Part shown: positions 38,844-41,408 of the stretch, one piece after another
Position numbering within the stretch: position 1 is the first letter of the stretch
Layout of the letters: each line of letters opens with the position of its first letter
From: Pseudofrankia coriaricola
GTDB taxonomy: Bacteria > Actinomycetota > Actinomycetes > Frankiales > Frankiaceae
Assembly (NCBI RefSeq): GCF_001854805.1
Contig: NZ_MBLO01000036.1
Coordinates: 62,001 to 126,000, forward strand
Reading direction: 5' to 3'
DNA: 64,000 bases
Made by a program: the position numbers and the translations under genes
The notes under the pieces: generated by a model
What the model was told of the DNA's origin: nothing
The model's database searches: none
Seen by the model: only the letters and a program-made list of their open reading frames with translations

Positions 38844-39392
38844 ATGGCGGCACGAGCCGAGTCGGCGATCCTCGACGCGGCGTACGCGCTGCTGGTCGAA
38901 CGCGGGCTCGAGGCCACGACGGTCGAAGCGATCGCCGCGCGGGCGGGCGTGAGCAAGGTGACCATCTACAAGTGGTGGCCCAACCGCGCGGCGGTGATCA
39001 TGTCGGCGTTCCTGCGCGAGTCCGCGGACCTGCTGCCCTACCCCGAGCGCTTCCAGCTACAGCAGGTCGAGGACCGGCTGCTGATGATGACCGCGGCGTT
39101 CCGGGGCGCGACCGGGACCGCGATGGCGGCGCTGATCGCCGCCGGCCGGTCCGACCCGCAGCTCGCCGAGGCGTTCCGCGACGGCTACATCAACGCGCGG
39201 CGGCGCCAGGGCATCGCGATCGTGCGGGCGGCCATCGCGGCCGGGGAGATTCGGCCCGCCGATCCCGACGTGGTGCTCGACCTGGTGTACGCGCCGCTCT
39301 ACTTCCGACTGATGGTCGGGCACAAGCCGCTGGACGAGGACGACGTGCGCGAGCACGTCCGGTTGGTGCTCGCGGCGCTGCGCCCCGCCTAG
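38844..39392 (+). CDS. TetR-family regulator
   Basis: 182 residues. SAILDAAYALLVERGLEATT and AIAARAGVSKVTIYKWWPNR form the helix-turn-helix; KWWPNRAAVI is typical of a TetR_C_6-like subgroup. The C-terminal half (ADPDVVLDLVYAPLYFRLMV) is the ligand domain. AAAGGAG precedes the ATG. It most likely binds the 20-bp palindrome upstream and represses itself and the divergent aldolase/CoA ligase operon. The stop codon TAG is also the first bases of a 69-bp tandem repeat. Confidence 0.93.
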   Translation: MAARAESAILDAAYALLVERGLEATTVEAIAARAGVSKVTIYKWWPNRAAVIMSAFLRESADLLPYPERFQLQQVEDRLLMMTAAFRGATGTAMAALIAAGRSDPQLAEAFRDGYINARRRQGIAIVRAAIAAGEIRPADPDVVLDLVYAPLYFRLMVGHKPLDEDDVREHVRLVLAALRPA

Positions 39393-39597
39393 AGGGCCAA
39401 AGGATGTGCGAAAATGATCTTCTTTCGCACATCCGGCGGCCGCCGTCCCCAGGGTCACCAGAGGGCCAAAGGACGTGCGAAAATGATCTTCTTTCGCACG
39501 TCCGGCGGCCGCCGTCCCCAGGGTCACCAGAGGGCCAAAGGACGTGCGAAAATGATCTTCTTTCGCACGTCCGGCGGCCGCCGTCCCCAGGGTCATT
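39391..39597. repeat. Three tandem 69-bp repeats, each with a conserved hairpin
   Basis: Units begin at 39391, 39460 and 39529. Each has AGAGGGCCAAAGGA, a hairpin, and GGCGGCCGCCGTCCCCAGGG. In unit 1 the arms are GGATGTGCGAAA / TTTCGCACATCC; in units 2 and 3 they are GGACGTGCGAAA / TTTCGCACGTCC. The T-to-C and A-to-G changes are paired, so the stem is kept. A fourth, diverged copy is at 34698-34738. The array starts within the TetR stop codon. Confidence 0.9.
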
Positions 39598-39667: not shown

Positions 39668-39708
39668 CGGTGGGCGGATGGGGCTCGAACCCATGGCCGG
39701 AAGACCAT
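39668..39708 (-). pseudogene. tRNA-like 3' fragment
   Basis: On the minus strand ATGGG-TTCGAGC-CCCAT forms a perfect T arm with the GTTCGA signature, followed by CCGCCCACCG, as in the acceptor 3' end of a tRNA. The complementary 5' acceptor sequence and D arm are absent; upstream is an unrelated 17-bp hairpin. It therefore looks like the 3' end of a tRNA left by an integration or deletion. It could be chance. Confidence 0.35.
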
Positions 39709-39758
39709 GAGGCCCTCGGTCCCGCTGACGTCAGGGCGTCCGCGGGACCGAGGGCCTC
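39709..39758. terminator. Long hairpin, 17-bp stem
   Basis: GAGGCCCTCGGTCCCGC (39709-39725) pairs perfectly with GCGGGACCGAGGGCCTC (39742-39758) across a 16-base loop. It lies at the boundary of gene debris and may be a terminator whose gene is gone, or an element end. Confidence 0.6.
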
Positions 39759-39762
39759 TCGT

Positions 39763-40257
39763 GGCCGACTACGGCGCCTCGGCGCGGGCCTCGCCACCCG
39801 GCTGGCGGCGGCCGGGGCGCCCTCGGGTGTGACGTACTGGCGGACCAGCCACCTGGGCGGCCACCGCTTCGCCGCGACCTTCTTCGTGCTGCCGGAGGGC
39901 ACCGCCTGGGCCTACGGCGACGAGGACCTCGTCGAGACGGTGCTGCGGCGCAAGGGCGAGTTCGCCGACGTCGCCGACCACTACCGCGGCTGCTGCGGGC
40001 TCAAAGGCCCTCAGGTGCAAGCACTCGAGCTCGAGGTCCTGCGCCAGGTGGGCTGGAGCCTGCTGGACTCCCCCCGCACGGGCTCGTTCGACGGCTCGCG
40101 CGCCGAGCTGTCCTGCGGGTATGACGGCGAGACCGTCACGTGGTCGGCAGACGTCCGGCCCGGCCGCGGCGTCCCGGCCCCCGACTGCCCGAGCCCGCCC
40201 GCATCCGCCACCAAGAGTCAGACCGAATGGGCGGTCTCGGCGATCAGTCGCGCCTAA
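39763..40257 (+). pseudogene. Sucraseferredoxin-like protein, 5' end missing
   Basis: The frame reads YWRTSHLGGHRFAATFFVLP, GTAWAYGDEDLVETVLRRKG, HYRGCCGLKGPQVQALELEV and LRQVGWSLLD. These match the C-terminal half of thioredoxin-like sucraseferredoxin proteins. The N-terminal half, including the first cysteine-bearing region, is missing, and the frame runs back into the unrelated 39.7-kb hairpin. A broken gene of at most ~160 codons. Confidence 0.65.
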
Positions 40258-40389
40258 GCGCCTATCCAGGGGTTCTGCGCGTAACCCGGGTGAGATCACC
40301 GGGTGGGAGGTCGTGTTGACACCGGCCCCGCCGGGGGTTGGATCGAGGTTGCACCAGTCGTCCACCCGTCCGGCGAGGTCGTGGTCAGT

Positions 40390-40800
40390 ATGCGCCCGCC
40401 CACTGTGTTCGCCAACCGCCCCACCTGCGACCTCGAGCAGCTGCGAGGGGATCTGCGAGGCCGGTGGCGGGTGGCGGTGCGGGCGGTGATGGTGCTGCTG
40501 TCCCTGCACGGGCTGACCGCGGCCGAGATCGGGGCACTGCTGGAGTGTCATCCGGCCACGGCGCGGCGCTGGATCGGCCGGTTCAACATCGCCGGACCGG
40601 CCGGGCTGGCCGACCGGCCCCGACCGGGACGGCCCCGGCTGGGTGGACGCCGGCTGTGCGCGCGGATCGCCGCCCTGCTGGAGTGCCCGGGGCCGTGGAC
40701 GGTCCGGCGGGTCTGGCGCTGTCTGGGCCGGCCGGACCTGAGCCTGCGCACGCTGTACCGGCGGATCCGTCAGGTCGCCGTCTGGCGCCGGCCCTGTCCC
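40390..40800 (+). mobile_element. IS630-type transposase, N-terminal DNA-binding fragment
   Basis: The frame from ATG 40390 reads VRAVMVLLSLHGLTAAEIGA, LLECHPATARRWIGRFNIAG and LADRPRPGRPRLGGRRLCA. This is the double helix-turn-helix N-terminus common in IS630-family transposases of actinomycetes. The DDE catalytic domain is absent: after RQVAVWRRPCP the reading frame passes into a toxin-antitoxin locus. The element is a remnant. GTG 40303 would extend the frame upstream. Confidence 0.7.
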
Positions 40801-40843
40801 GGAGGAGGACATCGAGGAGGCGCGCCGGTGGTTCCGGCCGTGA
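40799..40843 (+). pseudogene. C-terminal tail of a lost antitoxin
   Basis: A short frame reads PEEDIEEARRWFRP and stops with TGA overlapping the toxin start as GTGA. The acidic-helix tail and the overlap are what a VapB-type antitoxin end would show. Everything upstream has been replaced by the IS630 fragment. Confidence 0.5.
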
Positions 40844-41265
40844 CGAGGCGGCGTCCGCACAGCGGCCGACTCGGTATCCCGTTCGTGCTCGATACCGGTG
40901 CGGTGATCGCGTTGTCCCAGCTCGACAAGACGGCGCGAACGATGCTTGCCGCCGCTCTGCGTGAGCAGTCTCAGGTCTGGGTTCCCGCTCCCGTCATCAC
41001 GGAGCTCGTCCGTGGCAATCAACGGCGAGATGCCGCCGTCAACCGCGTGTTGAAGTCCGTCAGTGATGTCCATCCGCTCGACGAGCCGCTCGCGCGGGAT
41101 GCCGGCAGGTTGCTCGCCGGTGGCGGCACGACGGTGGACGCCATGGTGGTGGCGACCGCGCAACGTGTCGCGGGCGCCGGCTCAGTGGTGATAATGACTG
41201 GCGATCCCCGCGACATCACGGCACTTGTCGCTGACGACTCACGGGTACGAGTGGCGGCTGTATGA
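40840..41265 (+). CDS. PIN-domain ribonuclease toxin (VapC-type)
   Basis: 141 residues with all four acidic PIN residues in place: FVLDTGAVIAL (Asp18), PVITELVRGN (Glu55), TTVDAMVVATA (Asp100) and IMTGDPRD (Asp122). VapC toxins cleave RNA, often tRNA, and are normally neutralised by VapB. The start GTG 40840 overlaps the antitoxin tail. No complete antitoxin remains upstream, so the toxin must be unexpressed, inactive, or controlled from another locus. A strong terminator follows. Confidence 0.88.
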   Translation: MTRRRPHSGRLGIPFVLDTGAVIALSQLDKTARTMLAAALREQSQVWVPAPVITELVRGNQRRDAAVNRVLKSVSDVHPLDEPLARDAGRLLAGGGTTVDAMVVATAQRVAGAGSVVIMTGDPRDITALVADDSRVRVAAV

Positions 41266-41347
41266 CCCGGTCTCCCCAGGTCATACGCGGTGTTCTCCCC
41301 GGGGCTGCCGATGCCCGTCGCAGCGAAAGTAGGTAGAGCCGGTCACG

Positions 41348-41383
41348 CGAAAAGCACGGTCCGCATGCGGACCGTGCTTTTCG
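41348..41383. terminator. 36-bp perfect palindrome, bidirectional terminator
   Basis: CGAAAAGCACGGTCCGCA (41348-41365) is followed directly by its exact complement TGCGGACCGTGCTTTTCG (41366-41383). It lies between the convergent PIN and P450 genes. T-rich sequence follows on the plus strand. Confidence 0.85.
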
Positions 41384-41408
41384 TCGTTGTCGGGCCGGGT
41401 GATGGCGG

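Follow-up and report, generated by a model that had tools for sequence, protein, structure and literature searches.

Type II VapBC modules combine a PIN-fold toxin carrying conserved acidic residues with an antitoxin whose gene lies directly upstream of the toxin gene and overlaps it. VapC15 of M. tuberculosis (4CHG) and VapBC1 of Caulobacter (5K8J) are the closest described examples for the locus presented here. Toxin genes without an adjacent antitoxin are also on record: TASmania is reported to list many such orphan toxins (PMC6504116), and the class of object is therefore already known.

The locus lies in the draft genome (G000, 11.2 Mb in 280 contigs) of a soil actinobacterium of the Frankia group. 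The window, i.e. the whole stretch of 64,000 nucleotides that was analysed, corresponds to bases 62001-126000 of contig C36. It carries an intact VapC-type toxin gene preceded by a short remnant of the antitoxin gene, itself joined to the left half of an IS630-family element. We give a probability of about 0.75 to the reading that this is a decayed VapBC-type locus, generated by an IS-linked deletion of about 14 kb, in which the toxin was silenced through the loss of its promoter.

The toxin gene and the remnant of its antitoxin

The toxin gene occupies positions 40828..41265 of the plus strand (145 aa) or, if it begins at GTG 40840, encodes 141 aa. Its product belongs to the Pfam PIN domain family (PF01850, E 1.1e-9, 39.4 bits for a cut-off of 23.6). 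Since its score against the NCBIfam VapC equivalog NF047959 is far below the cut-off (17.9 bits vs 80), it is filed here as a VapC-type PIN toxin and not as a member of that equivalog. Four acidic residues, D18, E55, D100 and D122 (numbering from GTG 40840), are all present, and we take them to be the catalytic ones. In an alignment of 23 proteins of the family, from which the other matches were left out, D18 and D122 show no variation, conservation of D100 reaches 90% or more, and position 55 is occupied by E, or by Q in several members. The AlphaFold model of the toxin has a mean pLDDT of 89.8 and its top PDB structure matches are VapC toxins, the best being VapC15 (4chg_A, E 9.7e-6), while profile matches to structures comprise 5k8j (E 1.3e-5) and 4chg (E 0.001). 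The predicted fold is that of a normal VapC. A search for inactivating changes in the gene revealed no stop, frameshift or active-site loss. One candidate, a window-specific S to G change (TSD to TGD) in the last Asp motif, was ruled out because two paralogues (L014 and L019) share it. The toxin is thus intact, with its four acidic residues, as an earlier note on this DNA had stated.

Orthologues 80-94% identical to the toxin are found in four other genomes. At E<=1e-18, matches occur in 5 of the 393 genomes of the class (own genome included, with at most 10 candidates scored per genome), all from one genus. At E<=0.001 they extend to 21 of the 35 genomes of the family, again counting the window's own, and are mostly distant paralogues. 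One related PIN gene match (L012, G029:C1:2937295-2937672) includes an internal TGA stop and may likewise be a decayed gene of the wider family. The comparison between the toxins of the window and of its closest relative, G031, gives a dS of 0.120 and a dN of 0.034 (ratio 0.28; 0.083 to 0.197 for nine other pairs). When polarised with three outgroups, the changes amount to 8 synonymous and 7 non-synonymous on the window branch and to 3 and 4, respectively, on the G031 branch, with one unpolarised. These changes indicate neither clear relaxation nor clear constraint; the window branch also spans the time before the deletion.

The start codon deserves attention. GTG 40828 is present in all five orthologous loci and is preceded, at a distance of 7 bases, by GAGGAGG (40814..40820, plus strand), the likely ribosome-binding site, which is identical in the five loci. 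At 40840, four of them have GTG and AgB1.9 has GTA. These observations make GTG 40828 probably the real start, and not GTG 40840 of the GTGA overlap to which the earlier note had drawn attention; the overlap of GTG 40840 with the TGA of the antitoxin does exist.

The ribosome-binding site sits within the remnant of a VapB-like antitoxin gene (40790..40843, plus strand), which is homologous to the four intact orthologues and identical to them at 48 to 53 of its 54 bases. It consists of the last 17 codons and the stop, so that the tail of 14 codons described from the window alone is real but longer than had been thought. Its translation ends with GPVPEEDIEEARRWFRP immediately before the stop. 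The remnant has no start codon: its frame is open over 33 codons up to the upstream stop and contains neither ATG, GTG nor TTG. A complete 72-aa antitoxin gene precedes and overlaps the toxin gene in all four other orthologous loci; the arrangement of a VapBC operon, with the antitoxin gene directly upstream, is therefore observed in those four but not in the window, where 17 codons remain. The intact antitoxins match CcdA (20.4-20.8 bits, cut-off 22.4) and VapB_antitoxin (18.5-20.0 bits, cut-off 23.4) with scores under the cut-offs in the three cases tested, and two of the three match NCBIfam MazE far under its cut-off. PADLOC families give no match with the G031 antitoxin, the toxin or the 291-aa fusion described below.

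No Pfam antitoxin family was identified in seven other ORFs near the junction, on both strands, a set that covers the short ORFs in part; this agrees with the view that no complete antitoxin is hidden in another frame. Nor did a search of the whole G000 genome with the G031 antitoxin provide an orphan VapB of the same family, for which the earlier note had proposed to look elsewhere. The remnant itself, at 86%, is the one close match. Distant antitoxins occur on contigs C33 (43%, residues 5-69) and C220 (38%, residues 6-69), each directly before its own VapC. Three more matches have E values of 0.38 or worse, and that at 0.38 (C261) precedes its own toxin.

The IS630 fragment and the deletion junction

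IS630 elements target TA. A Suc_Fer-like (sucrase/ferredoxin-like) gene ends here with a stop codon whose TA (40255..40256) is directly followed by the left end and the 5' half of an element of this family (40257..40794, plus strand), and the Suc_Fer homology to G028 and G031 stops right after this TA. An alignment of the left end with six further copies, taken from four genomes, shows that their flanks differ before the same left-end point. The element retains the N-terminal part of the transposase (40390..40794, plus strand), with helix-turn-helix (HTH) domains (HTH_32, HTH_28 and HTH_29), the rest being missing. This part matches positions 2-113 of the 299 of NF033545 (E 3.7e-13, below the full-length cut-off) and is 67% identical to L078 up to residue 135, where the match ends. 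Of the characters of an IS630 element, the N-terminal HTH and the TA target are present; a complete transposase and both ends are not, homology ending at 40794. The fragment is presumably unable to move by itself. No second copy of it was found in G000, and a search for plasmid copies of the IS gave one weak partial match in Streptomyces. In four other loci (L074, L075, L076 and L077, in G030 and G031) the DNA homology of the IS to the window breaks off some 135 to 435 bases in from the left end, and these copies look truncated or internally deleted too.

The Suc_Fer-like gene is represented by its 3' part (39775..40256, plus strand), which covers positions 118-191 of the 191 of PF06999 (E 2.3e-7, 31.5 bits, below the cut-off of 34.9). 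It shows 91% identity to G031:C1:7220160-7220641 and 89% to G028, and the gene is whole in both genomes (316 aa). Its 5' part is missing from the window, lost at a separate scar (39765-39774).

The five bases GGCCC at 40790..40794 (plus strand) are common to the IS and to vapB. At this point GGCGGCGGCCCAA is found in three of the four other IS copies compared (L078, L079 and L081) and GGCGGCGACCCAA in the fourth, L080; vapB has GGCCC at the corresponding place in its four orthologues. Unlike the other IS copies, the window continues after 40794 into vapB sequence. In G031, TetR, Suc_Fer and vapBC are on one strand and in the order of the window: the TetR region at 7202548-7203253 (97%), Suc_Fer at 7220160-7220641 (91%), and the vapB tail and vapC from 7234714. 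There, 14.07 kb separates Suc_Fer from the vapB tail. When 13.95 kb of this stretch was searched in G000, the 40 candidates scored out of 1503 included 19 matches at E<=1e-60, none of them above 72% identity. The flanks of the missing stretch are 88-97% identical, against at most 72% for the best matches listed to the stretch itself, which is therefore taken as absent from G000.

In G028, Suc_Fer is carried by the strand opposite to vapC. The G031 layout may consequently not be ancestral, and the 14 kb may in part have been gained in G031. That vapB is truncated does not hinge on the G031 layout, the gene being complete in all four relatives. Most likely, a single deletion took away half of the IS together with about 14 kb, the 5' part of the antitoxin gene and the conserved block upstream of it. 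The antitoxin had initially been described as replaced by an IS630 fragment: its loss and the abutting fragment are confirmed, but a simple insertion does not account for them, as the layout of G031 points to a deletion of about 14.1 kb that begins within an IS630 copy on the left and ends within vapB on the right.

The following sequence of events can be proposed. An IS630-family element inserted into the TA of the Suc_Fer-like stop codon, upstream of a vapBC operon, a step that the comparison of copies and flanks shows. A deletion, measured as about 14 kb in G031, then brought the middle of the IS up against the final 17 codons of vapB; its outcome is visible in the window and its route was probably illegitimate recombination at GGCCC. 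It would have removed the antitoxin along with the conserved block upstream, leaving vapC and its ribosome-binding site intact. From then on little VapC would be made, with a weak IS promoter that may still read through to give a 291-aa fusion, and the survival of the cell would be due chiefly to the simultaneous loss of the toxin's promoter.

Other features are found further upstream. The two sides of the second scar (39765-39774), about 1 kb upstream of the junction, are 16.8 kb apart in G031, so that this short segment has two large differences. A 69-bp unit is repeated in three tandem copies at 39391-39595 (98% matches); its relatives give at least 40 further matches in G000 vs 3 in G031 and 1 in G028 (E<=1e-20), which looks like an expanded repeat family of the window's strain. 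The minus strand of 39672-39711 resembles the 3' half of a tRNA, according to its T-loop pattern. A tRNA attachment site was dismissed there: ARAGORN finds no tRNA in the window, and Rfam no tRNA at this place but two microRNA matches far under the gathering score. A long hairpin-forming stretch at 39707-39758, with 95% identity in G031, is perhaps a terminator.

Expression of the toxin and survival of the cell

Directly upstream of the antitoxin start lies a 23-base block, TATCGCCTTnnnAGTAGGATTGG, which is the same at 20 fixed places in all four orthologues. Nothing in the window matches it, even when as many as 3 mismatches are allowed. The TAGGAT it includes could be the -10 element of a leaderless transcript. 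A consensus promoter scan gives no promoter at 40100-41400 and none at the intact G031 operon either, and is thus uninformative. The IS retains TTGACA at 40316-40321, conserved in five of the six other copies and replaced by TTGATA in the sixth, and this might drive read-through transcription. With its ribosome-binding site and GTG kept, the toxin could be translated if transcribed; as that site is in the surviving tail, any block to expression is in transcription. The window toxin is most likely a poorly transcribed decay product, and none of the observations suggests a present function.

The transposase N-terminus is joined in frame to the PIN domain, giving from ATG 40390 an open frame without stops (40390..41265, plus strand, 291 aa) whose exact coordinates had been correctly recognised in the earlier note. 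That the transposase frame runs into the toxin frame is something that happens by chance, with odds of one in three per junction. It is very improbable that this frame is expressed as a new DNA-binding-plus-nuclease protein: it is open over 291 codons, TTGACA lies upstream and the PIN part is confident in the fusion model (block-mean pLDDT 91-97), yet the block means are low in the HTH part (43-72) and in the link (34-47), with residues 125-155 below 50, and the fusion is restricted to one genome among those with an orthologue. The confident PIN part implies that fusion is not expected to destroy the PIN fold, a point not used here to explain survival. Even harder to credit is an HTH-PIN chimera driven by the IS promoter and tolerated without antitoxin as the fusion restrains or aims the RNase, i.e. 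a single-chain replacement of VapBC. The titles and abstract openings covered by a literature search describe no IS630-VapC fusion, which is not proof of absence. The junction could also be an assembly error: IS elements cause false joins, and the genome is a draft of 280 contigs (3.87% contamination). This too is very unlikely: the junction is well inside a 338-kb contig, the left boundary falls exactly at TA, no second copy of the IS fragment was found in the assembly, and the missing 14 kb is not recovered elsewhere in an assembly rated 99.98% complete.

Loss of transcription has to be weighed against two explanations in which the toxin is made. The expectation that a toxin without antitoxin should be lethal is not supported here, the upstream block having been deleted as well; moreover, 32 of 78 putative M. 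tuberculosis toxins are reported as toxic when expressed in M. smegmatis (PMC2781298). The latter proportion is consistent with a toxin expressed at some level but weakly toxic, whose antitoxin could be lost at little cost, and the intact frame and the kept ribosome-binding site are compatible with tolerated expression. The conserved acidic residues and a predicted fold typical of VapC argue against it, and we consider this explanation possible though rather unlikely. Neutralisation in trans by a VapB from another locus of the same genome is improbable. In the antitoxins of C33 and C220, GPITDEE stands in place of the GPVPEED of the lost one, but each of the two directly precedes its own VapC. 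Tests in M. smegmatis with four VapB and VapC proteins of M. tuberculosis reportedly showed inhibition between cognate partners only (PMC2781298), and modelling reportedly predicts most non-cognate VapBC pairs to be incompatible (PMC7472061). As far as these two reports go, control in trans is a less likely explanation than a loss of transcription or a mild toxin.

Comparison with known systems

The locus offers a clean natural record of the origin of an orphan toxin, in which the antitoxin and the region upstream were lost at once in a lineage that lived on. Provided that the module was still intact immediately before the deletion, either it did not work as an effective addiction system on that occasion or its toxin is mild. 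Should the fusion be expressed, the toxin would have been captured by a transposase domain. Beyond the record of how an orphan arises, the locus corresponds to routine genome decay, well preserved but ordinary.

The window toxin shares with type II VapBC systems the PIN fold and the acidic residues, and its intact orthologues share with them the overlapping antitoxin gene upstream. It differs from them in that the window antitoxin is deleted except for 17 codons that are not translatable alone. The IS fragment resembles IS630-family transposases (NF033545) in its N-terminal HTH part and its insertion at TA, and departs from them by the absence of the rest of the transposase and of the right end. 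As in the orphan toxins reported in TASmania (PMC6504116), the toxin gene stands without an adjacent antitoxin. In contrast to those orphans as reported there, the deletion that made this one can be read base by base, since close relatives keep the intact locus.
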